Positions 433 to 35,510 of a stretch of DNA of 52,833 nucleotides are shown piece after piece; within the stretch, counting starts at the first letter, position 1; the number at the start of each line of letters is the position of its first letter. This stretch comes from an uncultured bacterium (GTDB lineage Bacteria > Bacillota > Clostridia > Lachnospirales > Lachnospiraceae), in contig CANDBT010000032.1 in assembly GCA_947383005.1 (NCBI GenBank), forward strand, positions 1 through 52,833, read 5' to 3'. A program made the translations under genes and the position numbers. Under the pieces are notes generated by a model that saw nothing but the letters and a program-made list of their open reading frames with translations, ran no database searches and had not been told where the DNA came from.

Positions 433-513
433 CGAGTAGGGAAAAGCCATCTTCCCCTACTCGCCGCGCAGCCCGCGTGCTGCGTCAGCAGCAAACTTCC
501 ATATGCGGACCTG
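433..513 (+). repeat. C-type (TTCC-loop) hairpin element, copy 1
   Basis: First hairpin CGAGTAGGG...CCCTACTCG (433-463). The second has the outer stem CCCGCGT/ATGCGGA, inner stem GCTGC(GTCA)GCAGC (479-492) and the one-sided loop AAACTTCC. It lies between the SHOCT-like gene and the 3' end of the convergent LacI-type gene. Confidence 0.75.
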
Positions 514-525
514 TGCATAATCCGA

Positions 526-550
526 CAAAACGCGTCACTGGCGCGTTTTG
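526..550. repeat. CACTGG-core hairpin
   Basis: CAAAACGCG pairs with CGCGTTTTG around TCACTGG. The same core with different arms occurs at 20535-20565 and 28835-28863. It directly follows a C-type element and may act as a terminator between convergent genes. Confidence 0.55.
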
Positions 551-585
551 CTGGATACTTCGTAAGCAAAACTCTGACGGCCATC

Positions 586-1572
586 TCAGCCGCCAGAGCC
601 TTTTACGATAAGAGAATATCCCAATTTTATCTCCCGGGGCGCCATTTCCCCCCCTTTTTTTAATAAATTCAAAAGCATATCTCCTGCCAAAGCCCCACAC
701 TCCTCGTATGAATAATGGACCGTAGTCAAAGTTGGCGTAGTCACATCCGAAAGGGAAGAATCCCCATGTCCTGCCAGCCACATCTCATCCGGTACTGCTA
801 TTTTCTGGCTTTTCAAGTACTGCATAGCGCCTACGGCCAATGTATCTGTAGCGCAGATCATTCCATCCGGGACATCATGCTGTATCAGCCTCCTGGCTGC
901 GGCAATACCTGCATCCAGGGTAAATCCCTCCGCCACCACATAGTTTTCTGTTAGCCGCTCCAATCCAAAATCTTTCACTGCATCACAGTACCCCCGATAA
1001 CGCTCATAGCCCGCTGCCTGATCCTGCATCAACACTCCCATATATCCCAAACGATATCTGCCTTTCTGCAAAAACATCTTTGTCAAATCATAAGTAGCAT
1101 GATAATCATCATGACAAATGCAGTTAGCCCCTGGCAGGCTTTGTCCGGCCAGCACCACAGGCACAGACATCTGTTTCAAAAACTGTTTGTGCTCCGACGT
1201 AAATACTGTAGCAATTAAAATAACCCCATCCACTTGTTTCTCGTTAAAAATCGTCAGGCTTTCCAATTCCTTTTGCGGGTTATTTTGGGTATCGGTCAAC
1301 AGTAAATGATAACCTCCCTCATTGGTCACAGACAAAATTCCCGCCACCATACTGCCAATAGACGCAGAATCAATCCTGGGAAGGATAACCCCAATCAGTT
1401 TGGTCTTTTTCGTCCGCAAAGTCTGCGCCTGCATGGAAGGGCGATAGCCGGTCTGCTCCACCACTTTCCTGATCGCTTCCCTTTTTTCATCCGAAATATA
1501 TCCTTGATTAAAATAGCGGGAAACCGCCGCACTGGATACCCCTGCCAGCCGGGCAATCTCTGCAATATTCAT
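586..1572 (-). CDS. LacI-family sugar-operon repressor
   Basis: This 328-residue protein has an N-terminal LacI helix-turn-helix (residues 1-25, with GVSSAAVSRYFN as recognition helix), a hinge near residue 50 and a periplasmic-binding-protein-like effector domain (about 57-325). The helix resembles sucrose-type repressors (ScrR/SacR). A GAAGGTGG ribosome binding site precedes the ATG. It lies downstream of a PTS permease gene and a HAD phosphatase on the same strand. Three copies of a near-palindrome centred on ATCGAT lie upstream of those genes (3991-4004, 4088-4103, 5122-5135) and are the likely operators. The actual sugar cannot be read from the sequence. Confidence 0.88.
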   Translation of the reverse strand: MNIAEIARLAGVSSAAVSRYFNQGYISDEKREAIRKVVEQTGYRPSMQAQTLRTKKTKLIGVILPRIDSASIGSMVAGILSVTNEGGYHLLLTDTQNNPQKELESLTIFNEKQVDGVILIATVFTSEHKQFLKQMSVPVVLAGQSLPGANCICHDDYHATYDLTKMFLQKGRYRLGYMGVLMQDQAAGYERYRGYCDAVKDFGLERLTENYVVAEGFTLDAGIAAARRLIQHDVPDGMICATDTLAVGAMQYLKSQKIAVPDEMWLAGHGDSSLSDVTTPTLTTVHYSYEECGALAGDMLLNLLKKGGEMAPREIKLGYSLIVKGSGG

Positions 1573-1614
1573 CCTTGTCCACCTTCTTTTTGCAGCATAT
1601 TCGTTAATTATCTA

Positions 1615-1764
1615 TAACCGTTCGGACGGCAGCGGAATTGGATAGGACTTTGGACATCAAACTTGCTTGCAAGCCAAAATTCATATCAAATCCTACATCG
1701 GATAGACAGCCGATGCTTCTTCCCCAGCACATACGGACAAGGAAATGTCCCGCCTGAACAGTTA
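1615..1764. repeat. A-type element, copy 1
   Basis: Ends TAACCGTTCGGACGG (1615-1629) and CCGCCTGAACAGTTA (1750-1764) are near-perfect inverted repeats. The interior shares GCTTGCAAGCCAAAATTCAT with the copy at 5275-5421 and can form a long stem. It fills the gap between the PTS gene and the repressor; no other gene is seen there. Confidence 0.75.
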
Positions 1765-1852
1765 CTATAATTTTACACTATCTTCCGGCCTATAACAAGG
1801 ATTTTCTAAAAGGATACATGGCCTGGATCACTTCCAATTGCTATGACCATCC

Positions 1853-3850
1853 CTATCCTTCTTTTATCGAAATAACCGGCTCCATCCGTTTCATCTTTCC
1901 CGTATTTTTTACAACAAACTGCGGATACATAAAGCTGTTTGCCACCAATACCGCTGTTGTCGTGCTATAACCGGCAGCACGGATTTTATTTAGATCAAAA
2001 GTCAGAAGTTTCTGCCCTGCCTTCACTTTATCGCCTGCCGAGACAAAAGCCTCAAACCCGTCGCCCTTCATGTTGACGGTATCAATACCTACATGAATCA
2101 ACACTTCCATGCCCTCTGCCGAGACCAGCCCAATCGCGTGAAGCGTATCGGTCACAGTAGAAATTTCTCCGTCACAAGGCGCTACCACCAGCCCAATCTC
2201 CGGTTCAATGCCGACACCATCACCCAAAACACCCGAAGCAAACGTCTCATCCGGAATCTCGCTCCTGGCAATCACATTTCCCTGAACCGGCGTATACAAA
2301 ATCCCAGGTTCCCCGGCTTGCCTGGTTGCCTTTGCCTGCTCTTTTTCCTGGCTCGCTTTATGTCCGTCTTCACACCCTGCCGTCTGGCTTACCTTGCCAT
2401 TTTTATCCATGCTGCCGGTATTTCCCGCTCCTGCCCCCGCAGCCGCCAAACCGGCGCCTTCTGTTCCTTGTCCCTCGCTCTCTTCTTTCCAGACTACCCA
2501 GGTCAAGGCAAAAGAAATCACAAAAGCTACTGCCAGTGTCACCGCATACTGCCATGTATAATCCATCGTAATCAAAAAGCCCGGAAGCCCCGTCACCCCG
2601 TAAGAAGTAGCTCCGATGTGGAAAAGCGCCCCCAGCAAAGCACCGCATGCCCCGCCGACCATACCGCAGATCAACGGCTTCATAAACCGCAGGTTTACAC
2701 CGAAAATAGCCGGTTCCGTAATTCCCAGCGCCGCTGACAGGGAAGAAGGAATTGCCACAGCCTTCGTCTTATGATTTTTGGCTTTCAGCCCCACAGCCAG
2801 ACACGCTGCACCTTGGGCAAAATTAGCCGCACTGGCAATAGGCATCCAGATATTCAGTCCGCCTTCCGCCGAAAGCATCCCCGCCTCAATTACATTGTAC
2901 ATATGATGAATGCCGCAAACAACCGTAAACGGATAAAGAGTGCCCATAATTACCGACCCGATGCCGTGCCCCACGGTAATCACCCATTGGGCAAAGCTCA
3001 GCACATAATTCTCTGCCGTGGAAAATACCGGCCCGATGATCCCCAGCGTTAAAAACGCTGTCAGCATCACTGTACACAGAGGGGTTACAAACAAATCAAT
3101 CATTTCCGGTACGTGCTGATGCAGCCATTTTTCCACCTTGCACATCAGCCATACCGCTATAATTACCGGAATTACATGACCCTGATAACCTACCTACCGA
3201 ATGGCAAAACCAAACAAATTCCATACCGGGATTTCCGACGGATCCATGCTGCCTACAGACCAGGCATTAATCAGATTCGGGTGAATCATAATCATGCCGA
3301 TAACCGCGCCCAAAAAAATATTTCCCCCAAACACTCTGGCTGCAGAGACAGAAATCAATACCGGCAAAAAGACAAACGCAGTATTGGCCAGCAAATCTAA
3401 TATGCCATACCAATCGCTGCCCGCGAAAGCAGGCATGGCTTTACCTAATGCCTCCACCAGGCCCATCATCAACCCGGAAGCCACAATTGCCGGAAGGATC
3501 GGTACAAACACATCCCCCATCGCTTTGACGATCCGCTTTATCAGCGGTTGTCTTGCGGCGGCCGCCGCTTTGACCTCCTCTTTGGTAGCCGCACTCATCC
3601 CACTGACTTTCAGGAATTCATCATACACTTTGTTGACTGTACCCGTCCCGATAATCAACTGCAGTTGCCCGTTATTGCTGAATACGCCTTTGACTCCATC
3701 CACATTTTCCAGCTTTTTCCTGTCAATTTTGCCGTTATCTACCGTCACCAGGCGCAACCGAGTGGCACAATGCGCCACACTGACCAAATTCCCCCTGCCG
3801 CCCAGGTTCTCATAGATTTCTTTCGCGCATTTTGCATAATCCATTGCCAT
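1853..3850 (-). pseudogene. PTS EIIBCA sugar permease split by an in-frame TAG
   Basis: Two open segments in the same frame make a complete EIIB-EIIC-EIIA protein of about 664 residues. The first (3850 to 3197) carries EIIB with the phosphorylated Cys in VAHCATRLRL and the first EIIC helices. The second (3193 to 1853) carries the rest of EIIC, including GITEPAIFGV, and EIIA with the active His in VLIHVGIDTV. They are separated by one TAG (3194-3196) inside the conserved stretch ending FGFAIR-stop-VGYQG; no base is gained or lost. The domain order and EIIC sequence fit the sucrose/trehalose class. The gene is either newly inactivated, read through, or affected by a sequencing error. Two operators (3991, 4088) lie upstream. 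Confidence 0.85.
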
Positions 3851-3990
3851 TTTCTCGTTTATCCTCCTTTTTGCTGTTGAGCCCTCTCGGAAACTCTGTT
3901 ATGACTTTTCCAACGCGCTTTCCCGAAAAACCAGTTTCTTCTTCCTATCTTCACTTCTTATCCTTACTTCAAAACATTACGCACGTTATG

Positions 3991-4004
3991 TGAAATCGAT
4001 TACA
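3991..4004. promoter_or_regulatory. LacI-type operator 1 (PTS promoter)
   Basis: TGAAATCGATTACA, a near-palindrome centred on ATCGAT, about 140 bp upstream of the PTS start. It is the reverse complement of the site at 5122-5135. Confidence 0.7.
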
Positions 4005-4087
4005 TCTATATATTCATTATACTCCCATTATTTATCCATGTAAATTTACATTTTATCCAAAATTTTAATCTTATTTTGTGCAATATA

Positions 4088-4103
4088 GTGATATCGATTT
4101 CAC
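4088..4103. promoter_or_regulatory. LacI-type operator 2 (PTS promoter)
   Basis: GTGATATCGATTTCAC, a second near-palindromic site 97 bp from operator 1. The pair could allow repression by looping. The rest of 3851-4245 holds AT-rich promoter sequence and a 15-bp direct repeat CCTGCCCGGACATCT (4135-4149 and 4168-4182). Confidence 0.65.
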
Positions 4104-4245
4104 TTAAGGCTGCAAAATCATCTTCCTGAATCTTCCTGCCCGGACATCTTCCGTCTGTCCCATATGGCCTGCCCGGACATCTGTCTTTTGCCTGTTTTCC
4201 TATTCCGGCTGGTCATCCGCCCCCGTTCAGATACCATCCGCCGGA

Positions 4246-5085
4246 TCAGCAAGCGTCCAGCAGATGGTACCGGGCAAACGCCGTATAAATACCGTCCTCC
4301 TCCACTGACGGGCAAACGGCATCCGCCAATTTTTTCAGCGCCTGGCTTCCGTTATCCATACATATCGAAAGCGCCGCCGTTTCCATCATCTCCCAATCAT
4401 TCATACTGTCACCAAAAGCTACGGTATTCTCCAAAGACACTCCCAGACAGCGGCAGATCCTCCGGACTCCCTGCCCTTTATCAAAACTTTTGTTCAGCAT
4501 CTCCCCATTGATAAACCCGTAAGAATCCGGTTCCTGCACACAAAAAGAAAATTCTTCTCCTAACAGCTCCCTGGCCGTCTCCATCTGCTCTATCTTATGA
4601 CACATCATCACAATCTTATATATCGGCTCATCTTGATAATTGGCCATGGGCTGAATATTCAAAGAATCTTCCAACTGCCTGCGCCACCGCAGCAGTTCAC
4701 TGTTGCCCCCCTCCCCGGCATGACCCTGCAAAAACTCCTTAAATGCTTCGTCCGTAAAAGCTCCATCCCGGCATTCCACCGTCCGGTAAATCCCGTTTTC
4801 TTTAAGAATATCCATAGCTTTGTGCTTTTGCTCTTCAGTCATTGGACAGTCATAAATCTCTTCCCGGCCACACACAATATAACCGCCGGAACTGCTGATA
4901 AACCCGTCAAAACCATACTTAAGCAGCGGCTTAAGCATCCCGTAATTCCTTCCTGTGCAGAGAAATACTTTATGGCCTTGCCGCTGCGCCATCCGTATTG
5001 CCCGCAGCGCCGACTCCGGCGGCTCATTGCACCCCGGCTTCGTCAGGGTGCCGTCAATATCCAAAAAAATTAATTTTCTGCCCAT
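4246..5085 (-). CDS. HAD-IIB (Cof-type) sugar phosphatase
   Basis: This 279-residue protein has the haloacid-dehalogenase motifs FLDIDGTLT near the N-terminus (nucleophile and acid/base Asp), LCTGRN (motif II region), a conserved Lys (NKSFDKGQG) and FGDSMNDWEM for Mg binding. The cap between about residues 85 and 190 is of the Cof/IIB type. Such enzymes dephosphorylate sugar phosphates or related small molecules. The ATG at 5085 follows GGAAGTG; a GTG directly before it is less likely. It precedes the PTS gene on the same strand, and a matching LacI-type operator at 5122-5135 suggests shared control, so it may remove phosphate from the imported sugar or relieve sugar-phosphate stress. Confidence 0.88.
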   Translation of the reverse strand: MGRKLIFLDIDGTLTKPGCNEPPESALRAIRMAQRQGHKVFLCTGRNYGMLKPLLKYGFDGFISSSGGYIVCGREEIYDCPMTEEQKHKAMDILKENGIYRTVECRDGAFTDEAFKEFLQGHAGEGGNSELLRWRRQLEDSLNIQPMANYQDEPIYKIVMMCHKIEQMETARELLGEEFSFCVQEPDSYGFINGEMLNKSFDKGQGVRRICRCLGVSLENTVAFGDSMNDWEMMETAALSICMDNGSQALKKLADAVCPSVEEDGIYTAFARYHLLDAC

Positions 5086-5121
5086 CACACTTCCTGCCTT
5101 TCATCCCTGTATTGCTTTTTG

Positions 5122-5135
5122 TGTAATCGATTTCA
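5122..5135. promoter_or_regulatory. LacI-type operator 3 (HAD phosphatase promoter)
   Basis: TGTAATCGATTTCA lies 37 bp upstream of the HAD gene start and is the exact reverse complement of operator 1. Confidence 0.7.
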
Positions 5136-5274
5136 TATAAATCATATCACATTTTCCTATAATATGACAAGAAGATTTCCTCTGTAATCTTTCACAATTT
5201 TTCTCTGCGAATTTTAGTGACTCTTCACAAGATATCTTAGGAAAGCGTCCAGGCCACCTTTCGGAATATCCTTG

Positions 5275-5421
5275 TAACAGTTCAGACGGCGGGGAATTTA
5301 ACGTGAATTTTTGGCGTCAAGCTTGCTTGTAAGCCAAAATTCATGTTAAATTCCACATTGGATGGACATCCCAGCTTTTATCCGGCGTAAACGTGCAAGA
5401 AGATACCCGTCTGAACAGTTA
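5275..5421. repeat. A-type element, copy 2
   Basis: Ends TAACAGTTCAGACGG (5275-5289) and CCGTCTGAACAGTTA (5407-5421). A roughly 20-bp interior stem starts GAATTTAACGTGAATTTT and returns at AAAATTCATGTTAAATTC. It abuts the B-type copy that starts at 5422. The 582-bp gap 5089-5670 is otherwise promoter sequence. Confidence 0.8.
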
Positions 5422-5565
5422 GTTACTGTTCACAGGTGCCCTGTGAACGTAACTGCATATGCCCATTTAAGATTGCCTACGGCAATGGGGCATATGCTTT
5501 GGCCTCATAACTGCATTGGCCCATGGCTAATCAGCGTGGTGATTAGCCATGGTGTGAACAGTAAC
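5422..5565 (-). repeat. B-type (GTTACTGTTCAC) cloverleaf element, copy 1
   Basis: A 144-bp element bounded by GTTACTGTTCAC and GTGAACAGTAAC. It holds three hairpins: GTTCACAGG/CCTGTGAAC type, GCATATGCCC/GGGCATATGC enclosing ATTGCC/GGCAAT, and CCATGGCTAATCA/TGATTAGCCATGG. It is in the opposite orientation to the copies at 19291, 20434 and 23094. Confidence 0.85.
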
Positions 5566-5603
5566 AACTGTTACAATATCCTTCATATGAACGATTAAAA
5601 CAC

Positions 5604-5632
5604 TTGACATACCACTTTTACAGGTATTATAT
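5604..5632 (+). promoter_or_regulatory. Sigma-A-type promoter of the secreted protein gene
   Basis: TTGACA (5604-5609), 17-bp spacer, TTATAT (5627-5632), about 39 bp before the start at 5671. Confidence 0.65.
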
Positions 5633-5670
5633 TTAAAAAATACAATACTTTTAGTATAAAGGAGGTTCTT

Positions 5671-6528
5671 ATGACAAAAAAAGGAATAACGACCATATTA
5701 TGTGCGGCAGTATTCACTATGCTGGGCGGAACAATCCTCTCTTTTGCAGGTGAATGGAAACCGGATGCGAAAGGCTGGAGGTACGACAAAGGGGATACCT
5801 ATGCCGCTTCTGAATGGATTAAAGATGGTGAAAAGTGGTACTATATTAATGCAGACGGATATATGCTTTCAAACACATGGGTTGGAAACTACTATCTGGG
5901 AACAGACGGGGCCATGCTCGTAAATACGACAACACCCGATGGCTATCAGGTCGGGGCAGACGGGGCATGGCTCCCGGATTCTCAACCCCAAACTTCAGCC
6001 AATCAATACCTTGATGCTTATGCTACGTTTTTACGCTCTTACAAAATTCCCAAAGGCAGCAGCCCCAGATTCCAGTTGCTTTACCTTGACCATGATGCTA
6101 TACCAGAATTGCTGATTTCAGAAAATAGCGGAAGCATGGTACAGGGACAGTTATATCATTACTATCAGGGACAAGTACAGGCACTTGGTTCCTTTGGCGA
6201 AAACGGAGGTATTTCCTACATTCCATCAGCAAACATTTTCTACAGTTCTTCACTGAGCACCGGGATATATTATGCAATATACCATAAAATCCAAGATAAC
6301 ACCTGTATCCCTTTAATTCGTTTTGATTCTTACAGCGCAGGTAATTATTATGAAATTAATGGATCTCCTGTAACAAAAGAGGAATTTAACGGCCAGGAAG
6401 CAACCTGGAAAGCAAACTATCCCATGACCAATAGCGCCGACTATGATAACAGCTATGAGTTAAACGAAACGAACATTAATAGGATGATGGAAAACATTCA
6501 AAACGTAATGCCTGGCAACAACCCGTGA
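5671..6528 (+). CDS. Secreted protein with cell-wall-binding repeats
   Basis: This 285-residue protein starts with a signal peptide (about residues 1-26, basic MTKK then a hydrophobic run). Residues 28-106 are aromatic/glycine repeats of the choline-binding (CW_binding_1) type, for example KWYYINADGYM and NYYLGTDGAML, which anchor proteins to the cell surface. The remaining 175 residues (Tyr- and Ser-rich, containing LLYLDHDAIPELLI) match no domain I can name; that motif is common in clostridial secreted proteins of unknown function. A GGAGG site 5 bases before the ATG and a clear promoter support the start. The upstream gap is filled by A- and B-type repeats. It appears to be a single-gene unit. 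Confidence 0.85.
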   Translation: MTKKGITTILCAAVFTMLGGTILSFAGEWKPDAKGWRYDKGDTYAASEWIKDGEKWYYINADGYMLSNTWVGNYYLGTDGAMLVNTTTPDGYQVGADGAWLPDSQPQTSANQYLDAYATFLRSYKIPKGSSPRFQLLYLDHDAIPELLISENSGSMVQGQLYHYYQGQVQALGSFGENGGISYIPSANIFYSSSLSTGIYYAIYHKIQDNTCIPLIRFDSYSAGNYYEINGSPVTKEEFNGQEATWKANYPMTNSADYDNSYELNETNINRMMENIQNVMPGNNP

Positions 6529-6539
6529 CAAAATTCAAT

Positions 6540-6620
6540 CGAGTAGGGAAAAGCCATCTTCCCCTAATCGACGCGCGGCCCGCGTGCTGCGTCAGCAGCA
6601 AACTTCCATACGCGGGCCTG
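6540..6620 (+). repeat. C-type hairpin element, copy 2
   Basis: First hairpin CGAGTAGGG.../CCCCTAATCG. Second hairpin GGCCCGCGT/ACGCGGGCC enclosing GCTGC(GTCA)GCAGC and the loop AAACTTCCAT. It starts 12 bp after the stop of the secreted protein gene. Confidence 0.8.
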
Positions 6621-6634
6621 TACATTAAAAAAAT

Positions 6635-6674
6635 CGAGTAGGGGAGGATATCCCCTGCTCGCCACGCGGCCCAT
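6635..6674 (+). repeat. C-type element, truncated copy
   Basis: First hairpin CGAGTAGGGGA...TCCCCTGCTCG, then the start of the second hairpin (CCACGCGGCCC), which stops where the recombinase remnant begins. Confidence 0.7.
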
Positions 6675-6700
6675 ATTCATCATTGTATCAATTAAACGGT

Positions 6701-6883
6701 TTATCTATCAATGTATTCATCCACCTCGCAGCCACAAAACTCTTCGTTGTCCTCAATATAGCCGCGCAAAAGTTCTCTCTGCCCTCTGATGCTTTCGCTC
6801 TCTGTTTTGCCCTTCCCCCTGTCTTCCACCGACACACGCAGATACAGTGCCGCAACATAAGTACCGCTGGTTTGTCCACTCAT
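6701..6883 (-). pseudogene. N-terminal fragment of a large serine recombinase
   Basis: About 60 codons read GTYVAALYLRVSVEDRGKG and continue to CEVDEYIDR before a stop. This is the start of the resolvase catalytic domain of large serine recombinases: LYLRVS carries the nucleophilic Ser, and DEYID is normally followed by a DGYSG-like motif that is missing here. The several hundred downstream residues are absent; a truncated C-type repeat lies just beyond the break. The fragment cannot catalyse recombination. Together with the SHOCT-like gene at 204-422 it suggests remains of an integrative element, although the two lie on opposite strands 6.3 kb apart. Confidence 0.8.
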
Positions 6884-10886: not shown

Positions 10887-11058
10887 GAAAAAAATTTAAT
10901 TTTAGCAAAATATTAGCGCCGAAAACTATCAGCTATTTTTAAGAAATTTTGTATATTATTACCAATATGTTAAAACAGCCAATTTTCTTGCAGCCTGCAT
11001 ACGGTGACATGTATATGATGACAGCATCTGCCTTCCATGCGCAGGCCTGAGTATAAAA

Positions 11059-11156
11059 GGGGCTGTTGTAAAATTCAGTGTTTCTACAATATATGGCAGA
11101 AGCTTTTTAGTTTCTATGCTATATATTGTATAAATCTGCTATTTTGCAACAGCCCC
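11059..11156. repeat. 98-bp MITE-like hairpin element
   Basis: GGGGCTGTTGTAAAA (11059-11073) pairs with TTTTGCAACAGCCCC (11142-11156); inside, CAATATAT pairs with ATATATTG. No open frame. The same GGGGCTGTTGCAAA arm forms a short terminator at 20364-20396. Read on the minus strand it follows the gene at 11189-12271 and may terminate it. Confidence 0.6.
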
Positions 11157-11188
11157 TCTTCTATGGCAACGGTTCGGGCAAGTATCTT

Positions 11189-12271: not shown

Positions 12272-12456
12272 GCTGTCAACCTCCTCGCCGCAGGCTCTGT
12301 TCCCTCAGTTGCCGGCTGATAAAAGCGCATATTTCTGCGCCATAAGTCTGGCGGAACAATCCGTATTTTCCGCCGTCTGAACCCTTATGCCTTCTTATAA
12401 ATATATCGGCTGATGCCAAAAAATCATAAACCGCTCATGCAAATTATCCGTTTAAT

Positions 12457-12532
12457 CGAGTAGGGGGCTACTTCCCCTACTCGCCGCGCCGGGCGCCCGT
12501 CAGCTTTAGCTGACATCTTCCTTGGAGTGCCC
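12457..12532 (+). repeat. C-type hairpin element, copy 3
   Basis: CGAGTAGGGG.../CCCCTACTCG, then a second hairpin with the novel inner stem GTCAGC(TTTA)GCTGAC and loop ATCTTCC closed by GGGC/GCCC. It is read antisense within the tail of the broken DacF-like gene. Confidence 0.75.
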
Positions 12533-12544
12533 ATGTGCATAAAC

Positions 12545-12640
12545 ATTACTGTCCACAGGTATCCTGTAAACATAATTGTATACGCCTGATTACCAGTTGC
12601 CTGCGGCAAAGAGGCATATTTACGTCCTGTTATCACAGCA
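12545..12640 (-). repeat. B-type element, truncated copy 2
   Basis: ATTACTGTCCACAGG begins a degenerate B-type copy with GTTGCC/GGCAAA and TATACGCC/GGCATATT stems. The CCATGGCTAATCA hairpin end is missing. Its inner boundary coincides with the point where DacF homology stops. Confidence 0.75.
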
Positions 12641-13256
12641 CCCTCCAAAAACACCTGAGAACCGCCCATAGACTTCGCATAAGCACTGGTCACCACTTCG
12701 TCGTCCATTTTAATTTTCCCCGAATCGATGGCATCAAAAATCAAAATTAACGTCATAATCTTGGTTATGCTGGCAGGGCTTCGCTGTTTATCTGCATTTT
12801 TCTCATAAATCACCTGACCGGTAGAAGCTTCCATAAGCAGCGCGCTGGGCGCTGAGATTTCCGGCCCTTCCGGAATTTCATTGGCTGTCTCTTCCTCAAG
12901 TCCTGCCTCTACTGACGCACGGGCAGCACCGGCCTCTGCAGAAACGGGAGCAGCTTCCGCCAGTGCAGGCACGGCTTCATCCGATATGGGGGCCGCTTCT
13001 GCTTCTGCCGATGCCAAAACAGCTTCCTGGCTCTCCGGCGCCATATCCTCCATTCTCCAAATATCCCGCAGCATACCTGGCTGCTCCGGCGCTGCCAGTG
13101 ATAATAGCAATCCTGCTCCTAACGCAACCAAACTCTTTTTCATTATCCATTCCTCATTTTTTTCTTCTCTATATTTAATGTATGGCTATTTTTTCAAATC
13201 TATGTTATGATGTTAGAGTTGAACATCCTGCGGATGTTTATCGCCTTAAAAACAAT

Positions 13257-13332
13257 CGAGTAGGGAAGATTTTCCCCTATTCACCGCGCGACCCGCACGC
13301 CGCTTTAGCAGCATATTCCTCTGTGTGGGCCT
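13257..13332 (+). repeat. C-type hairpin element, copy 4
   Basis: CGAGTAGGGAA.../TTCCCCTATTC, then ACCCGCAC/GTGTGGGC enclosing GCCGC(TTTA)GCAGC and loop ATATTCCTCT. It fills most of the gap between the divergent DacF-like and deacetylase genes. Confidence 0.75.
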
Positions 13333-13425
13333 GTGCATACAAAATCTGCCCTGTCAGGCTGTTTAAAAACAGAAACCGAAAAACTTTTAATCAATTATTC
13401 TTTTAATATACGGAGTATTTTCAAT

Positions 13426-19213: not shown

Positions 19214-19290
19214 TTAATGTGTTACCCTATAGTCGGATTTACAGTACGAAAAGCTGTGCCTTTTATCGGAAATCGCTGGGAAATTTCCGA

Positions 19291-19434
19291 GTTACTGTTC
19301 ACACCATGGCTAATCACTTCGCTGATTAGCCGTGGGCAGATATCATTATGGGAGCAAAGCATATGCCCCATTGCTGAAGGCAATTTAACATGGGCATATG
19401 CGGTTACGTTCACAGAGTACCTGTGAACAGTAAC
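19291..19434 (+). repeat. B-type cloverleaf element, copy 3
   Basis: 144 bp from GTTACTGTTCAC to GTGAACAGTAAC with the three expected hairpins. The stretch 19435-19617 then holds a TTGACA-like promoter, a CAGCTAA/TTAGCTG hairpin with a T-run and a palindromic site at 19549. Confidence 0.85.
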
Positions 19435-19548
19435 ATTTCCAATAAAAGACACATTATTGACAGGATATTGTAATAGTATTATCAATAAAAATTTGCTATA
19501 ATAAAAATGTACCCGCAACAGCTAATGCTATTTTAGCTGCTGCTTTTA

Positions 19549-20354: not shown

Positions 20355-20363
20355 AAAGCCAAA

Positions 20364-20396
20364 GATGGGGCTGTTGCAAATTGCGACAGCCCCATC
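20364..20396 (+). terminator. Terminator-like hairpin of the secreted protein gene
   Basis: GATGGGGCTGT pairs with ACAGCCCCATC around TGCAAATTGCG. It shares its arm with the 98-bp element at 11059-11156. Confidence 0.75.
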
Positions 20397-20433
20397 TCTA
20401 TGCACACGGGCACCCAAAGGAATATTTTCAATC

Positions 20434-20626
20434 GTTACTGTTCACACCATGGCTAATCACTCCGCTGATTAGCCATGCGCAGATATCATTATGGGAGCAA
20501 AGCATATGCCCCCGTCTACACTCCGTTCCGGTCGGTTCTAAACAAGCGCCACTGGCGCTTAGAACCCGAAGGCAATTTAAAATGGGCATGTGCAGTTACG
20601 TTCACAGGGTACCTGTGAACAGTAAC
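20434..20626 (+). repeat. B-type element, copy 4, carrying an inserted hairpin
   Basis: Normal B-type ends and stems, but the ATTGCC/GGCAAT tip is replaced by about 56 bp (20513-20568) containing a hairpin GTTCTAA...GCGCCACTGGCGC...TTAGAAC, of the CACTGG-core type. The element is 193 bp. The gap 20296-20827 is thus tandem repeat, terminator, B-type element and the nrdD promoter. Confidence 0.85.
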
Positions 20627-28792: not shown

Positions 28793-28834
28793 TCATCGGA
28801 AATTGTGTCCTATGAATTAAAAACGCTCCGCGAA

Positions 28835-28863: not shown

Positions 28864-28923
28864 GACCGAAGTGGAACATAGAACGCACTCCGTGCAAAAG
28901 GAAATGGCTGCTGACGCGCCATA

Positions 28924-29793
28924 CTAATAATACTTTTTATTCATGGAAAACCCTCTTCCCCGTACTTCACTGACGCGGCTGATAACCAAAAAACTTTCCG
29001 GGTCGATTTCATGAATAAGCCTTTCCATTTTCGGCAATTCCCGATTGGAAATCACACTGAATACCACCTTAAGCTCCATCTGAAGATAACCGCTCTCCGC
29101 GTTAAGCAGAGTGACGCCTCTGTCCATTTTCGTCAAAACTGCCCTCCTCACTTCATCCGGATAACGGGTCACTACCTTGACCTCCGTGCGGGAAGCTCCC
29201 ATCAGCATCAGCTTATCCAATACGATCGTATAAGTCAGCACCAGCAAAATCCCATACAATAACTTTTCCGGAGTACTCCAAAACCCTTGAGCCAGCAAAA
29301 TACAAAAATCAAATATATACAGGCTAAGTGATATCGGAATACGGAAATAGCGGTTTAATACCAGCGGCGGGATATCCATGCCGCCCGTAGAAGCTCCTGC
29401 CCGAATGACTATGCCCAAAGCAGCGCCGATACCTAAACCGGAAAACAATGTACACAACAGAATATCCTGCGTAATGACCCAATCGCCAAATATCTGATCA
29501 AATATTTCCAGCGCTATCGGATAGACAAATGTACTGATTATCGTTGATACTGCAAAAGCTCTTCCCAACAGGCAGTAACCGGTTATCAGCATAAGAATAT
29601 TGAATATTAACACAAATAGCGATACCGGCACTCCGACAGCATTGTTTATGGCCAAGGCAATTCCCGTCGTACCTCCTGTAACCAGCCCTACAGGAATCAA
29701 AAATAACTTAACCGCCAAAGCATATAAAATATTCCCTGCTATCACCGACAAAAGAATAATCCATTTTTGATTGGTTCTTTTTCGCATATCCAT
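28924..29793 (-). CDS. YitT-family membrane protein
   Basis: This encodes 289 residues from the ATG at 29793 (MDMRKRTNQKW). Five to six membrane helices in residues 10-195 form the YitT (DUF161) module, with GLVTGGTTGIALAINN and RAGASTGGMD typical. The C-terminal 80 residues (VVTRYPDEVRRAVLTKMDRGVTLLNAESGY) are the DUF2179 cytosolic domain. The family is widespread in Firmicutes but its transport or sensing role is unsettled. The frame opens upstream to 29970, but that extension is translated C-type repeat and has no ribosome binding site, so it is rejected. It converges on the hscC unit. Confidence 0.9.
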   Translation of the reverse strand: MDMRKRTNQKWIILLSVIAGNILYALAVKLFLIPVGLVTGGTTGIALAINNAVGVPVSLFVLIFNILMLITGYCLLGRAFAVSTIISTFVYPIALEIFDQIFGDWVITQDILLCTLFSGLGIGAALGIVIRAGASTGGMDIPPLVLNRYFRIPISLSLYIFDFCILLAQGFWSTPEKLLYGILLVLTYTIVLDKLMLMGASRTEVKVVTRYPDEVRRAVLTKMDRGVTLLNAESGYLQMELKVVFSVISNRELPKMERLIHEIDPESFLVISRVSEVRGRGFSMNKKYY

Positions 29794-29827
29794 AAAAATA
29801 CACCCTTCTTCAATCAAATAGAGGAAA

Positions 29828-29908
29828 CGAGTAGGGAAGAGCCATCTTCCCCTACTCTCCGCGCGGCCCGCACGCCGCTTTAGCGGCATATTCCTCTGTG
29901 CGGGCCTG
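29828..29908 (+). repeat. C-type hairpin element, copy 5
   Basis: CGAGTAGGGAAGA.../TTCCCCTACTC, then GGCCCGCAC/GTGCGGGCC enclosing GCCGC(TTTA)GCGGC and loop ATATTCCTCT. This is the clearest copy. Confidence 0.85.
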
Positions 29909-29919
29909 TACATAAAAAA

Positions 29920-30168
29920 GAATCCTGCTTCGCAGGATTCTTCGCCTGCGGCGGGTCGCTTTAGCGACATGATTCCTTTCCGCCGCAGTGCAATCCTGCC
30001 CGGAGGGCTTTTGCTTTATAGGATGCACTTTCCTATAAAGTAAAAAAGAATCCTGCTTCGCAGGATTCTCCGCCTGCGGCGGGTCGCTTTAGCGACATAA
30101 TTCCTTTCCGCCGCGGTGCGATCCTAAGCGGAGCGTTTTTGTATCATAGGACGCACTTTCCTATGATA
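29920..30168 (+). repeat. Two tandem C-type variant elements
   Basis: Two copies about 127 bp apart, each with GAATCCTGCTTCGCAGGATTC-like hairpin, then CTGCGGCGG/CCGCCGCAG enclosing GTCGC(TTTA)GCGAC and loop ATNATTCCTTT, then a TATAGGA/TCCTATA-type hairpin (ATCATAGGA/TCCTATGAT in the second). The stem differs between copies only where pairing is kept. They account for the gap 29794-30248 with the previous element. Confidence 0.85.
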
Positions 30169-30175
30169 TAAAAAA

Positions 30176-30207
30176 ACGCCTGTCAAAGAAATTTTCCCTG
30201 ACAGACG
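30176..30207 (-). terminator. Terminator of the subtilisin-like protease gene
   Basis: On the minus strand CGTCTGTCA pairs with TGACAGGCG, followed by seven T. Confidence 0.85.
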
Positions 30208-30248
30208 TGGATCGAGGCATCAAACCTAATACTTTTCAAAATATTAAT

Positions 30249-31883
30249 TTAGTAGACAAAGCTCCCGCTCTTTTTCGTATCCCCATAAGTTATTTCATAA
30301 TGATGGGTACCATGGCCCAGATTAGACAACGCCACTTCATAATTTCCATCCCCTTTATTCAATATTGAACCATTATACGGGATATCGTCAATCTTTATAG
30401 CAAGCTGGCTTCCGTCCTTCTTTGTTTTAATCACAAGGTTCGCTTTCGTCTTGCCATTGACTGTGGTAGTCTTCACCGAAACAGAAATCGCATACATAGG
30501 CACTTCCGGGGTATCTTCCGGAGGAGCAGGCGGCTGCCATCCCTTCCAGGGCTTATCCGAATCCGGCTGTGTCTCTGGCTCCGTCGGCGCTGGGGTGGTC
30601 TCCGGCTCGGTTGGCTCCGGAGCAGTATTTCCTGTAGATACATTAGCCAGATTCAACACTCCATAGCCAAAATAAGCATCCCAGCCGCTGCTCCCCCGGT
30701 CATCGCTTCCATCCTGCAATGTCTGCTTCACCGCGGCAGGATCTGCCCCAAAATTCGTGGCCTTCACCAATGCCGCTGCGGCGGATACGTGAGGCGCTGC
30801 CATAGACGTACCGCTTTTTGTCGTATAACCGGTGCGTCCGGCACTGACTATATTAACGCCGGGAGCAGCTATGCTTACATTATTGCCGTAATTGGAAAAC
30901 GAGGCCCGCTGGTCATTGGAATCTATCGCGCTGACGCATATCAGCTCCTTAATATGAGCAGGGCAAAACCGGTCTGTGCTGGCATTATCATTGCCCGCTG
31001 ATGCTACTACAACTACCCCTGAATTAATCGCGCTCTGGATAACCGTATCCAGGTAGTGAGAAGACGACGGGTCATAACCGCCAAGGCTGAGATTAATCAC
31101 GTTGGCGCCATGCTCTACCGCCCACTGGACGCCAGCCGCAATCGTAAGGTTAGAACCTGTACCATTGGCATCCAACGCCTGAATCGGCATAATCTGAACA
31201 TTGGTTCCCTTTGTAATATCAGCAATCGTTCCGGCCACATGAGTACCATGGCCATTGCCGTCTTCCGAACTACCGCCGCTGTGCATACCTGTTCCGCCTA
31301 CCATCCTGCCGGAGAAAAGCTCATGTGAACTGGTCACTCCGGTATCAATAACGGCAACGATAACCTGCTTGCCGCGCTGCTCGTCAGACATCCTGCTGAT
31401 AAAATCATCGGCGCCCATCCGGTCAGCTCCCCAGGTACGATGACTGGAACTGGCTGCTTTAAAACTGGTTGCGGCAAAAGGCTCGCAGACAGTAACCAGC
31501 GAATCTGTCTCCACGCTGGCAACACCGGACATGGAAGAAAGTTTCTCATAAGCCTTCTTTACTGTCTCCAGCTTATCAAACTGCAGGATACAGTATCCGT
31601 TATTATCCAGCAAAAACTGGGACGCACCTATAGCTTTGGCAACAGCGGCGCCTGTTTCGGTTTTGACAATCAGACGCTTTGTCGAGAAATCCTTCAGACT
31701 GCCGTCATTGGCCTGCTCGGGCTTGATCGGGGTATAATCCCCGCTTGCCCAATATGCGGCAAGAAGCTCCCGGATCTTTGCGTAATACGCTTCGTGATCA
31801 GCCGCCTGCGCGGTCTTTGGGGTAACGATTATGCTGGACAATGCCAACATTCCTGACAACATGAAACAAAGCAGTTTCTTCAT
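30249..31883 (-). CDS. Secreted subtilisin-like serine protease (S8)
   Basis: This 544-residue precursor has a signal peptide (1-27, ending AQA), an inhibitor-like propeptide (about 40-135) and a peptidase S8 domain with the complete triad: Asp180 (VIDTG), His212 (NGHGTHVAG) and Ser360 (SGTSMAAPH); the oxyanion Asn lies in ASAGND. After the catalytic domain a Pro/Glu/Thr linker (about 417-460) leads to a C-terminal beta-type domain of about 80 residues. It probably acts outside the cell as a general or processing protease. The AGGAGG-type site precedes the ATG at 31883. Several TCAGAAAACA-type direct repeats lie upstream (31989-32088) and may be regulatory. Confidence 0.94.
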   Translation of the reverse strand: MKKLLCFMLSGMLALSSIIVTPKTAQAADHEAYYAKIRELLAAYWASGDYTPIKPEQANDGSLKDFSTKRLIVKTETGAAVAKAIGASQFLLDNNGYCILQFDKLETVKKAYEKLSSMSGVASVETDSLVTVCEPFAATSFKAASSSHRTWGADRMGADDFISRMSDEQRGKQVIVAVIDTGVTSSHELFSGRMVGGTGMHSGGSSEDGNGHGTHVAGTIADITKGTNVQIMPIQALDANGTGSNLTIAAGVQWAVEHGANVINLSLGGYDPSSSHYLDTVIQSAINSGVVVVASAGNDNASTDRFCPAHIKELICVSAIDSNDQRASFSNYGNNVSIAAPGVNIVSAGRTGYTTKSGTSMAAPHVSAAAALVKATNFGADPAAVKQTLQDGSDDRGSSGWDAYFGYGVLNLANVSTGNTAPEPTEPETTPAPTEPETQPDSDKPWKGWQPPAPPEDTPEVPMYAISVSVKTTTVNGKTKANLVIKTKKDGSQLAIKIDDIPYNGSILNKGDGNYEVALSNLGHGTHHYEITYGDTKKSGSFVY

Positions 31884-31988
31884 AAGCTTTCTTTTCCTCC
31901 TTAAATTTCTACAGATAACTTTACACCAAATATCTTACTCACATCGGCCGTACCTGCTCCTGCTAAACAAACCCTGCAGGCAGCCATA

Positions 31989-32088
31989 TCAGAAAATCAT
32001 CAGAAAACAACAATGGTACAAAAATAACCTTATCAGAAGAAAACAATCACCATTCAGAAGAAAACATACACTTTATTTCAGAAAACAA
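31989..32088. promoter_or_regulatory. Cluster of TCAGAAAACA direct repeats
   Basis: TCAGAAAA or TCAGAAGAAAACA occurs at about 31989, 32000, 32033, 32054 and 32079, all in one orientation, in the 300-bp gap upstream of the protease gene. No gene is seen in 31884-32183. A role as activator sites is only a suggestion. Confidence 0.4.
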
Positions 32089-32183
32089 TGCCTCCAATCA
32101 CTTGCTTATCATCAGTGTAGCAAATATGGAAATCATTGTCAAGGATAAACAAAACATGTAATGGAACTGTAAGCTTTTGGTAA

Positions 32184-34025
32184 TCATTTTGCCTGATTAG
32201 CCCTTATGCAGGCCAGAAATCTTTCTCCGTACTTTTCATATTTATATTCGCCGACGCCGGTAACGGACAGCATCTGCTGCTTATTTCCCGGCTTCACTAT
32301 ACACATGTGAGTCAGGGTTTTATCCGAAAACACGATATACGGCGGCACCTTTTCTTCTTTAGCGATTTCTGTCCGCAGCGCACGCAGCTTTTCAAATAAT
32401 CCCTCGTCCCGGCCTTCGGATAAAACGTCCCTCTTTCCTTCCTTCCCTCCTGGCCGCTCGGCTTTTGCCGCTCTTTCCGTATCTTTAGCCAGCTTCATCA
32501 GCAGCGGCTTGCCTTCCTTCAGGATTTCTTTAAAACGCCGCGCCAGCTTTACCACAGCATAATCGTCATTGGTAACAAGCAAATAATCTTCCATCTGCAG
32601 ATAATTCAGCACCTGCCGTATCCGGTACACCGGTATCTTTGCCAAACTTCCATAGTAAGGATTTTCATTCATCCGGTAATTTTTGATTTTCGCCGTACTG
32701 GCCCCATGAACCGTATCTACGATAACCGTCGTGCCGTATCTCTGATTACTGCTTTCCACACATCCAATCAAAGCCCTGGCAATCTCCGTCACATCTGTCT
32801 CCTCAAACTGAGTCAGGCAGTTAGAACAATTTCCGCAATAATTGCCCCGGTATTCCCCAAAATATTTTAAAATATAATCCCGCAGGCAATCGTTGGTAAA
32901 ACAATAAAATGTCATCTTTTTCAGACGCTGCTGGTCACGTTCCCTGATGATTCCCATAACTGCCGGGTCAAGATCCTGGCTGTCCTGACTATGTTCGATA
33001 AGAAACTGGTTTGTAACCACATCACGGCCATGATAATACAATATGCACTCGGCCGCCTCGCCGTCACGTCCTGCCCTTCCTGCCTCCTGATAATAAGATT
33101 CCAGATTTTTCGGCATCCCATAATGAAGCACAAACCTCACATTTGACTTGTCAATCCCCATGCCAAAAGCATTGGTGCTTATCATAACCGCCGCCCGGTC
33201 ATAGATAAAATCTTCCTGATTCTTTTTTCGCTCCTCATCACTTAATCCGGCATGATACCGAGTTACCGAAAAACCGTCCGTTGCCAGACGTTCACAAACT
33301 TCTTCCACCTGTTTTCTGGTCAGGCAGTAGACGATGCCGCTGTCTCCCCGATGGACATCCAAATAATTACGAATAGAGGCATACCTGTCCTTTACCGCCA
33401 TCACCCCAAAATACAGGTTCTCTCTGTCAAATCCCGTTGTCATCACCGTGGGACTCTGCATTTGCAGCAAATCAATAATGTCTTCCCGCACCTCTTTGGT
33501 CGCCGTAGCGGTAAACGCACTGACGACAGGGCGTTTGGGCAATCGATCAATAAACTCAATAATTTTCAGATAACTCGGCCGAAAATCCTGGCCCCATTGG
33601 GACACACAATGAGCTTCATCCACGGCTACCATCACAATACTGCTATGTAAAGCAAAATCCAAAAACTCATCCGTAACCAGCCTTTCCGGCGCAACATAAA
33701 TGATCGGATATCTTCCCTGCCTGGCAAATCCAAGTGCCTTATAATACTGATTCATTGTCAGGGAACTGTTCAAAAATGCCGCATGTATACCTGCCTGGTT
33801 TAAGCTTCCCACTTGGTCCTTCATCAAAGAAATCAAAGGGGAAATCACCAAAGTAATTCCCCCCAGCATCAATGCAGGTATCTGATAGCACAATGATTTT
33901 CCGGCACCTGTGGGCATAATGCCCAATGTGTCCTTTCCATCCAAAATACTGTCTATCAGAATCTCCTGGGCATTGCGGAAAGTGTCATATCCAAAATATT
34001 TTTTTAATATCTCATATTTATCCAC
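32184..34025 (-). CDS. recQ: ATP-dependent DNA helicase RecQ
   Basis: This 613-residue protein is a full RecQ: Walker A MPTGAGKS (37-44), VDEAHC, SAFTATAT, motif V/VI in STNAFGMGIDK and QEAGRAGRDG, a zinc-binding RQC part with CLRDY...CGNCSNC, and a C-terminal HRDC domain (about 530-613) for DNA binding. It unwinds recombination and replication intermediates 3' to 5'. The charged linker (KAERPGGKEGKRD) before HRDC is usual. It lies 10 bp downstream of tyrS on the same strand and has no clear ribosome binding site of its own beyond GGAATAACG, so it may be co-transcribed with tyrS and thus depend on the tyrosyl T-box. Confidence 0.96.
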   Translation of the reverse strand: MDKYEILKKYFGYDTFRNAQEILIDSILDGKDTLGIMPTGAGKSLCYQIPALMLGGITLVISPLISLMKDQVGSLNQAGIHAAFLNSSLTMNQYYKALGFARQGRYPIIYVAPERLVTDEFLDFALHSSIVMVAVDEAHCVSQWGQDFRPSYLKIIEFIDRLPKRPVVSAFTATATKEVREDIIDLLQMQSPTVMTTGFDRENLYFGVMAVKDRYASIRNYLDVHRGDSGIVYCLTRKQVEEVCERLATDGFSVTRYHAGLSDEERKKNQEDFIYDRAAVMISTNAFGMGIDKSNVRFVLHYGMPKNLESYYQEAGRAGRDGEAAECILYYHGRDVVTNQFLIEHSQDSQDLDPAVMGIIRERDQQRLKKMTFYCFTNDCLRDYILKYFGEYRGNYCGNCSNCLTQFEETDVTEIARALIGCVESSNQRYGTTVIVDTVHGASTAKIKNYRMNENPYYGSLAKIPVYRIRQVLNYLQMEDYLLVTNDDYAVVKLARRFKEILKEGKPLLMKLAKDTERAAKAERPGGKEGKRDVLSEGRDEGLFEKLRALRTEIAKEEKVPPYIVFSDKTLTHMCIVKPGNKQQMLSVTGVGEYKYEKYGERFLACIRANQAK

Positions 34026-34035
34026 TATAATTACG

Positions 34036-35268
34036 TTATTCCTCCAAAGTCACCCTCATAAAGTTTTTCTTGCCCCTCTTGATTATCATACCTTCACCGG
34101 CAAACGCCTCTTTGCCAAAAAATGCCTTAATGTCCTTTAGTTGCACCCCATTTACGGAAACTCCTCCCTGCTCCACATTTCTCCTGGCCTCGGAACGGGA
34201 AGCCGCCAGGCCGGATTTGTGCAGTATTGCCAATATATCGATTTTCCCGTCTGTAAAATCATCTTCGGACAATGAAAATCCCGGCATGTTTTCCAGACTC
34301 CCCTGGCCGCCAAATAATGCTCTGGCCGCCGTCTGCGCTTTTTCGGCCTCTTCTTTGCCATGAACAAGATCCGTCAGCTCATAGGCCAATATTTCTTTTG
34401 CCCGGTTAAGCTGGCTTCCTTCCCATTTGTCCATCTCATCAATCTGCTCAAGAGGAAGGAATGTCAAAAGGCGCAGGCATTTCAGCACATCTGCATCATC
34501 CACATTGCGCCAATACTGATAAAAATCAAAAGGCGACGTTTTCTTCGGATCAAGCCACAAAGCGCCGGCCTGTGTCTTACCCATTTTCTTTCCTTCTGAA
34601 TTCAGCAGCAAAGTAATCGTCATGGCATGGGCGTCTTTTCCCAGTTTCCGGCGAATAAGCTCAGTGCCGCCCAACATATTGCTCCACTGGTCATCGCCGC
34701 CAAACTGCATATTACAGCCATATTTCTGGTATAACATATAGAAATCGTAGCTCTGCATAATCATATAATTAAATTCCAAAAAGCTTAACCCTTTTTCCAT
34801 CCTTTGTTTATAGCACTCTGCCCGCAGCATATTGTTGACCGAAAAACAGGAACCCACTTCCCGCAAGAGTTCCACATAATTCAGATTCAGCAGCCAATCC
34901 GCATTGTTTACCATCAATGCCTTACCATCAGAAAAATCAATGAACCGGCTCATCTGCTTCTTAAAGCAGTCGCAATTATGCTGGATTGTTTCCTCCGTCA
35001 TCATCTGGCGCATATCCGTCCTTCCGGAAGGATCGCCGACCATACCCGTACCGCCGCCAATCAAAGCAATCGGCTTGTTGCCTGCCATCTGCAGGCGCTT
35101 CATCAGGCACAATGCCATAAAATGGCCTACATGGAGACTGTCCGCGGTCGGATCAAACCCAATATAAAAGGTCGCCTTTCCCGCATTGATCATCTCTTTG
35201 ATTTCCTGTTCGTTAGTAACCTGGGCAATCAGCCCCCGGGCTACCAGCTCTTCATAACAATTCATCAT
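34036..35268 (-). CDS. tyrS: Tyrosyl-tRNA synthetase
   Basis: This 410-residue class I enzyme charges tRNA-Tyr. It shows the HIGH-type motif in SLHVGHF (46-49), the tyrosine-pocket YDFYMLYQKYGC, the KMSKS-type KKMGKT, and a C-terminal S4-like RNA-binding domain (about 345-405, SRSEARRNVEQGGVSVNG). An AGGAGGG site precedes ATGATG; either could start. Expression is expected to be controlled by a tyrosine-specific T-box leader at 35525-35880. Unusually, about 200 bp of C-type repeat lies between the T-box terminator and the start codon. RecQ follows 10 bp after its stop. Confidence 0.97.
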   Translation of the reverse strand: MMNCYEELVARGLIAQVTNEQEIKEMINAGKATFYIGFDPTADSLHVGHFMALCLMKRLQMAGNKPIALIGGGTGMVGDPSGRTDMRQMMTEETIQHNCDCFKKQMSRFIDFSDGKALMVNNADWLLNLNYVELLREVGSCFSVNNMLRAECYKQRMEKGLSFLEFNYMIMQSYDFYMLYQKYGCNMQFGGDDQWSNMLGGTELIRRKLGKDAHAMTITLLLNSEGKKMGKTQAGALWLDPKKTSPFDFYQYWRNVDDADVLKCLRLLTFLPLEQIDEMDKWEGSQLNRAKEILAYELTDLVHGKEEAEKAQTAARALFGGQGSLENMPGFSLSEDDFTDGKIDILAILHKSGLAASRSEARRNVEQGGVSVNGVQLKDIKAFFGKEAFAGEGMIIKRGKKNFMRVTLEE

Positions 35269-35317
35269 TTTCCCTCCTGCTTTGCTCCTATCATTAATAT
35301 ATTCACCCTGTCATAAT

Positions 35318-35400
35318 CAAGTAGGAAGAGCCATCTTCTCCTACTCGCCGCGCACCCCATGCGCCGCTTCTGCGGCATACTTCCTCTCCATGGGGCTGCG
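35318..35400 (+). repeat. C-type hairpin element, copy 8
   Basis: CAAGTAGGAAGA.../TCTCCTACTCG, then a fully different outer stem CCCCATG/CATGGGG enclosing GCCGC(TTCT)GCGGC and loop ATACTTCCTCT. It is strong covariation evidence. Confidence 0.85.
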
Positions 35401-35411
35401 CAGAAAAAAGT

Positions 35412-35510
35412 GTGAGTTTTGACGCACACTCACGCCGGAGCGCGGTTGCGACAGCAACCATCTTCCTTTGCGCGAAGTGCGCATCCACACAGAGCGTTTT
35501 GTATCATAGG
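35412..35510 (+). repeat. C-type hairpin element, copy 9 (variant)
   Basis: GTGAG/CTCAC hairpin, then GCGC/GCGC enclosing GGTTGC(GACA)GCAACC and loop ATCTTCCTTT, then GCGTTTTGTATCATAGGACG as in the tandem copies at 29920. It abuts the T-box terminator. Confidence 0.75.

Follow-up and report, generated by a model that had tools for sequence, protein, structure and literature searches.

The window analysed here, i.e. the whole 52,833-nucleotide (nt) stretch of contig CANDBT010000032.1 (assembly GCA_947383005.1) from an uncultured bacterium of the family Lachnospiraceae, contains a recurrent unit of approximately 85 nt that folds into a double hairpin and is interpreted as a non-autonomous mobile element that homes to terminators. 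An initial annotation had reported at least nine copies of one architecture, comprising an outer stem, a perfect inner stem with a four-base loop and a one-sided loop with an invariant TTCC. The described sequences are present at all nine coordinates and represent at least three sequence types, namely A (433, 6540, 12457, 13257, 29828 and 35318), B (29920 and 30047) and C (35412). Eight of the nine were recovered by a covariance model at E<1e-5, and the copy at 35412, which reached only E=0.65, is either a distant type or unproven.

Anatomy of the repeat

Folding revealed two hairpins per unit rather than one. On the forward strand the unit begins with (A)AT, followed by hp1, a constant hairpin on the 5' side (CGAGTAGGG..CCCTACTCG in type A) that lies upstream of the hairpin reported originally and is part of the unit, by a CCGC linker and by the second hairpin (hp2). 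The latter comprises a GCGC foot, an outer stem of 8-9 bp, an inner hairpin of 5-6 bp and a one-sided loop of 10-11 nt, usually with TTCC; on its 3' side come the return of the outer stem, a T, the GTGC foot and an A, mostly with TAAAA next. The two feet form a 4-bp closing helix, GCGC/GTGC, with one unpaired T. When sequences were folded singly, hp2 took the described shape in eight of the nine copies (35412 alone does not fold so), and in nearly all folded copies both hp1 and hp2 were present, with a hairpin near each end. Thus, the reported architecture holds for hp2, while the constant hp1 and the foot with its unpaired T have to be added to it. The TTCC, on the other hand, is common rather than invariant, as it occurs in 114 of 135 model matches in the window's own genome and in 72 of 79 in other genomes, where 30 of the loci had been fetched by a pattern containing TTCC; likewise, an inner loop of four bases is found in most copies, with exceptions.

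The own-genome sample used in these analyses comprised 41 stretches (833 kb), picked for element richness. A structural descriptor gave 159 matches in it, compared with 24 in block-shuffled sequence, and the type-C motif (GGTTGC GACA GCAACC, TTCC) occurs nine times. The element is too small to encode a transposase, and among 40 descriptor matches without hp1, which were read by eye, we found no autonomous version (hp2 without hp1, with an open reading frame in between).

Distribution among genomes

The covariance model (R1) was built from 30 own-genome copies (alignment A3). Its training set holds six of the eight recovered named copies, which therefore match by construction, and both type-B copies lie outside it; with filters off, the six type-A copies scored 63-102 bits and those at 29919 and 30047 scored 41-43 bits. 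The window's genome (4.99 Mb in 136 contigs) contains at least 146 matches at E<=0.1, with 150 of 1809 candidates scored. Matches were also found in 11 of 60 other genomes, including seven of 23 congeners (57 in G019, 48 in G006, 13 in G008, seven in G023, five in G022 and one each in G001 and G010), with no match in the remaining 16, and a survey of the family, with nearly one genome per genus and at most 15 candidates scored in each, detected them in 29 of 298 other genomes. A pattern scan of a named species collection retrieved 30 stretches, mostly metagenome-assembled, titled Lachnospiraceae, Hungatella, Roseburia or Clostridiales. The element is thus patchy in its spread and multi-copy where it occurs.

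Insertion beside terminators

The insertion sites often have a terminator-like 3' flank, i.e. an A-tract followed by a hairpin, which corresponds to the T-tract and the terminator of a gene arriving from the right. It was present at 56 of 84 sites in the own genome (84 of 94 sites were counted, the other 10 having a 3' end that is not intact or a short flank), as against two of 84 mirrored 5' flanks and 117 of 4000 random intergenic points. A recount over all model-defined sites, with type B and damaged copies included, gave 50 of 96 at the 3' side and none of 96 at the 5' side, and in other genomes the corresponding numbers were 51 and two of 79 (79 of 98 matches were used; eight internal to arrays were skipped, and the remainder were repeated sites or lay near a contig end). 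Some of the sites that fail the rule look like terminators too A-poor for it. A hairpin score of the flanks with no T-tract requirement gave a median of 5 on both sides and hence no discrimination, and the terminator test was used instead. The right-hand gene ends facing the element at 68 of 86 sites (flanking genes for the orientation counts were called by a simple script). The element lies downstream of its neighbour's terminator, on the T-tract side, and its other strand runs in the sense of the terminated gene.

After removal of four weaker overlapping matches from 135, the sample holds 131 non-overlapping model matches, which occupy 97 sites, 69 of them single and 28 with arrays of two to four copies; earlier counts made on BLAST pieces (31 arrays; 107 of 131 for strand; 66 of 83 for gene ends) are superseded, as some pieces split one copy. 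The units of an array stand head-to-tail, and 25 of the 28 arrays are mixed in subtype. At 25 of 34 joints an AT separates the GTGCA-like end of one unit from the CGAG-like end of the next, and most of the other joints lead into type-B or type-D units or are decayed. Among the 78 copies defined by BLAST, about 73 have AAT at their left junction; the right one is mostly TA followed by A-rich DNA.

In the window, the type-A copy at 29828 adjoins hp1 of a type-B element and the one at 35318 adjoins hp1 of a type-C element, hairpins that have T-tracts on the other strand; here one repeat has landed on another's terminator-like hairpin. On their other strand, elements of types B, C and D carry a T-tract of their own behind hp1, and they alternate with a CATAGGA..TCCTATG-like palindrome (30009-30045 and 30136-30174 in the window; positions 2370-2640 of stretch L249), forming composite gene-end structures.

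Pairing between and within subtypes

In the own-genome alignment 92.1% of the cells are paired, and 55 are doubly changed, compared with 15.6±4.1 in shuffles, but hp1 is without any double change. The cross-genome alignment (79 matches from 60 loci, giving 74 distinct rows, of which a few are weak or lie on the wrong strand) is fitted to the model and hence biased towards it, yet the margin is large: 92.3% of the cells are paired, double changes affect 27 of 31 pairs, 433 cells are doubly changed compared with 133.6±10.5 in shuffles, and the covariation score is 0.528 as opposed to 0.182 in shuffled and at most 0.092 in slid controls. None of 500 shuffles reached the observed value in any of the five measures. 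Across these genomes hp1 covaries as well, unlike in the own genome alone. Between subtypes and species, pairing is kept, which bears out the original impression that the sequence changes while pairing persists.

Within subtypes the situation is different. In 36 ungapped full-length copies with at least 80% identity to their subtype consensus, substitutions affect 53 of 940 positions in hp1 stems, 73 of 1300 in hp2 stems and 37 of 682 elsewhere (loops), while TTCC has two in 144, a low rate that is suggestive only. Among 118 altered pairs, 68 are broken, 42 are changed on one side yet still paired, and only eight are doubly changed and paired, i.e. compensated. The stems of single copies are unprotected, and the copies decay regardless of pairing. 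Stems accumulate changes at the rate of loops, and the majority of altered pairs are changed on one side, so that structure is kept only in the copying lineage. This pattern fits a mobile element, whose structure counts for being copied, not for persisting. The initial annotation had left the choice between selection on structure and a structure-copying mobile element; the latter is favoured by the decay, by the single target and orientation and by the mixed arrays. As the nearest equal-length copy in the own genome has a median identity of 0.90 and a maximum of 0.976 (66 copies), the last burst there was not recent.

How the element may move

Transposition of a single strand in trans by a Y1 transposase of the IS200/IS605 type is the mechanism we tentatively regard as the best candidate. 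In this scheme a single strand of the element would fold, and an HUH-Y1 enzyme would recognize its end hairpins, cut the strand and join the hairpins on the 3' side of a short, T-rich target (TTTTAT|GCAC...CTCGATT). Such transposases, according to an excerpt of PMC6006769, act on single strands and recognize end hairpins. Copies of one IS200-type insertion sequence (IS) with the left end GGGCTTTAGCCTGTTGA begin behind the T-tracts of three different hairpins (stretches L094, L105 and L270), one of which belongs to a type-B-like element, and other IS200-type copies with a common (G)TGTCA-like left end also lie behind terminators (L003, L111, L276, L280, L289 and L294). The junctions are alike and in the same sense, TTTTAT|GGGC for the IS (TATATAT|GGGC in L094) and TTTTTAT|GCAC for the repeat. 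It is this sharing of the terminator site and of similar junctions that makes mobilization by such an enzyme most likely in our judgement. In addition, all seven genomes with at least nine matches in the family survey have a Y1 match, which was noticed after the fact.

As a separate observation, intrinsic terminators appear to be a homing site, in gene sense, for IS200-type elements of Lachnospiraceae (in the nine stretches with IS200-type copies named above), and at positions 1180-1245 of L270, from G019, one of them directly follows a type-B-like element's hairpin and T-tract. Counting terminators upstream of IS200-type genes proves nothing by itself: 16 of 36 have one in sense, but the same rule gives 19 of 36 antisense, and a farther stretch of 560 nt gives five of 36. 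What carries the argument for Y1 is that shared left ends lie behind different terminators.

Several results weigh against Y1 transposition, or against mobility and terminator homing as such. No Y1 element with the ends of the repeat was found: 24 Y1-related stretches contained one match to R1 (L094), and 35 further ones contained one at E<0.5 (L270), both being type-B-like elements that adjoin an IS200 and not IS ends. Y1 genes show no association with the carriers, occurring in 13 of 27 element-positive genomes and in eight of 18 without a listed match; G006, with its 48 matches, has only a 60-amino-acid (aa) Y1 fragment, and in G019, with 57, the two longest Y1 matches contain stops. The hairpins stand at the extreme ends of the element, with no linker between end and hairpin. 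At positions 1330-1290 (minus strand) of L242, from G019, an intron that we take to be group II-like, given its GTGCG start and a reverse transcriptase downstream, begins immediately after a type-B-like element's hairpin and T-tract. The terminator site thus attracts unrelated elements, and Y1 is not singled out by the target. As for the homing itself, intergenic TA(A/C)AAA sites (element sites included), used as a harder control, precede a terminator-like hairpin in 141 of 570 cases. No clean empty site was obtained: the gene next to the 433 copy has likely orthologues without the element in four relatives, but the intergenic DNA there is too diverged to align. Two of the five covariation measures do not exceed shuffles in the own genome (nine pairs with a double change compared with 7.7, and 28 further pair types compared with 27.2). 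Finally, 112 of 131 copies lie on the C-rich strand, a bias that equals that of the genes (554 of 662) and results from the orientation of terminators; where the flanking genes converge or diverge, the split is 18 to 7, a weak remainder, and a replication-strand preference was set aside as mostly accounted for by terminator orientation.

A mobile element of the same anatomy may instead depend on an enzyme other than Y1 or a reverse transcriptase, such as another HUH nuclease, a tyrosine recombinase acting on a folded strand or some other enzyme, in which case the head-to-tail arrays with their constant joints would come from repeated site-specific joining beside the terminator. We consider this unlikely, but less so than the other alternatives: the terminator preference, the arrays and the decay without regard to pairing are all signs of mobility, the stretches scanned contain no Y1 with shared ends, and 14 of the 27 element-positive genomes lack a Y1 match. 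On the other hand, the search, which covered Y1 and RVT_1 only, found no candidate, loss of the helper would give the same absence, and the own-genome copies are not very young. Spread via RNA, in which a reverse transcriptase would insert the element's transcript in the fashion of group II introns, with the terminator T-tract as entry site, seems improbable. The group II-like intron of G019 behind a T-tract and the reverse transcriptases of several carriers would agree with it, as would the truncated copies, of which, by reading, about 10 have lost the 5' part with the 3' end retained and about three are of the opposite kind. However, the truncations counted are few, and protection on the terminator side could explain them. 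A ribozyme would not fit into so small a unit, and the carriers G036 and G043 have no RVT_1 match. Moreover, G-T and A-C mismatches in the stems are near balance (112 and 96, one foot pair set aside) and hence do not point to one strand being folded as RNA. Reverse transcriptase frames of about 350-410 aa, presumably retron-like, were seen in several congeners (L235, L241, L243, L244, L246 and L254), with no model match in these stretches; such an enzyme was rejected as helper, because G016 has one too but lacks an element match, and because none was seen among the reverse transcriptases read from the element-rich G006 and G019.

The two remaining alternatives are both very improbable. A REP element served by a RAYT (TnpA-REP) transposase would likewise be intergenic, palindromic, high-copy and patchy, and Y1 proteins of RAYT length (235-271 aa) exist in the carriers G027, G043, G127, G157, G337, G338 and G344. 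Yet similar proteins (279-283 aa) are found in G033 and G062, which have no listed match, no model match lies beside the RAYT-length genes of G027 and G043 or in L290, L291 and L293, the three Y1 matches of the own genome are all at most 149 aa long, and the copies read have no GT[AG]G at the hairpin foot, the motif given in an excerpt of PMC6006769. A host RNA structure (a 3' untranslated region, an antisense or an attenuator element) selected at each site would account for the strong covariation across genomes and for the fixed position beside terminators. Against it, stems are unprotected within subtypes and most changed pairs are broken, 16 of 23 congeners have no match, arrays are mixed in subtype, and the element lies downstream of its neighbour's terminator.

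Comparison with known systems

The initial annotation knew no named family that matches, and our comparisons agree with it. In Rfam the only match in the window was a T-box, and region 29700-30300 gave nothing better than E=0.78 at a relaxed threshold; no Rfam intron match was obtained in the window or, at the relaxed threshold, in that region, and no GTGYG start was seen in the copies read. No description of this double-hairpin family was found in the open full-text literature, a scope that leaves out most subscription journals. The annotation had listed a lack of further copies, covariation no better than expected and a known family as outcomes that would speak against it; further copies were found, the covariation exceeds its controls, and no known family matches. 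We could not match the repeat to a described family, and it would represent a new variety of bacterial non-autonomous hairpin repeat.

The closest parallel is provided by PATEs, derived from IS200/IS605, which an excerpt of PMC7290912 describes as short, non-coding, with a hairpin at both ends and presumably mobilized in trans. The element shares with such ends-only elements its short length, hairpin ends and lack of coding capacity, and its target is of the same kind as that of the IS200-type copies in these genomes. It differs in that its ends are shared with no parent IS found in the Y1 loci scanned, that its hairpins stand at the extreme ends without a linker, that it forms many copies, several subtypes and stacked arrays, and that it has a one-sided loop, usually with TTCC. 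REP, BIME and REPIN sequences with their RAYTs are also intergenic, palindromic, present by the hundred and patchy between relatives, but the element has no GT[AG]G guide in the copies read and no RAYT beside copies where we looked, its units are direct and head-to-tail instead of inverted pairs, and it is in contact with terminator T-tracts. Group IIC introns target terminators and, like the element, enter behind the terminator hairpin in gene sense; the element, however, is 85 nt long, with no ribozyme domains seen and no reverse transcriptase. The double-hairpin elements of organelles, with which it was compared by description, also have two hairpins and many copies and are presumed mobile, but their hosts are organelles of fungi, algae and others. 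We know of no terminator target for them.

A more far-reaching proposal is that Lachnospiraceae have in these repeats a separate class of double-hairpin transposons that home to terminators, are moved by some single-strand enzyme and stack as mixed-subtype arrays at gene ends, and whose hairpins in turn are entry sites for other elements. We regard it as somewhat doubtful, a shade below the Y1 mechanism in probability.

Other features of the window

Table 1. Copies of the repeat and adjoining features in the window
Feature	Position	Strand	Score (bits)	Remarks
Type A, subtype ii, full length	433..517	+	92.5	
Inverted repeat after the 433 copy	520-556			On the side of gene 586-1572 (-); looks terminator-like, fails the strict terminator rule
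Type A, subtype ii, full length	6540..6624	+	89.8	
Beginning of another hp1-like stretch	~6635 (6635-6687)		20	Downstream of the 6540 copy
Type A, subtype iii	12457..12539	+	63.3	In rearranged 3' part of truncated carboxypeptidase-like gene
Type A, subtype i, short hp1	13257..13337	+	81.1	
Fragment, 3' tail alone of a subtype-iii element	20399..20425	-		
Type A, subtype i, full length	29828..29912	+	102.2	3' end TAAAAAA touches hp1 of the 29920 type-B element
Type B; hp1 GAATCCTG..CAGGATTC, hp2 CTGCGGCGG..CCGCCGCAG	29919..29992	+	40.9	
Palindrome TTTTGCTTTATAGGA..TCCTATAAAGTAAAA	30009..30045			Downstream of the first type-B element
Type B, second element	30047..30121	+	43.1	
Palindrome hpX TTTTTGTATCATAGGA..TCCTATGATATAAAAA	30136..30174			Downstream of the second type-B element
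Type A, subtype iv, full length	35318..35402	+	81.4	3' end touches hp1 of the 35412 type-C element
Type C (GGTTGC GACA GCAACC, TTCC)	35409..35483	+	13.8	Weak, E=0.65

The gene at 12424-13143 (minus strand), which we take to be D-Ala-D-Ala carboxypeptidase-like, is shortened in this genome, with a type-A element in its rearranged end, and corresponds to long open frames in six relatives. The 12457 copy was rejected as a simple insertion, as it sits in a larger rearrangement. The species are too diverged for an empty-site comparison. A T-box leader (Rfam RF00230, 106 bits) at 35551-35866 (minus strand) is the neighbour of the 35318/35412 pair. One or two further repeat families of about 150 nt are represented at 5271-5425, 5422-5565 and 19288-19435, with many copies in G008 and G022; their palindrome CCATGGCTAATCA..TGATTAGCCATGG, at 5521 and 19304, recurs at 20448 and 23107. 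Palindromic elements at 11052-11163 and 20363-20397 have common GGGGCTGTTG(T/C)AA ends and possibly belong to another small repeat family.

Implications

The repeat offers a clean case for telling selection on a mobile structure from selection on host RNA, and IS200-type elements, a group II-like intron and double-hairpin repeats converge here on one kind of target. If the reading as a terminator-homing mobile element is true, gut Lachnospiraceae would hold a mobile element, abundant and so far undescribed, for which terminators are safe landing sites and which may supplement or replace termination and 3' ends genome-wide.

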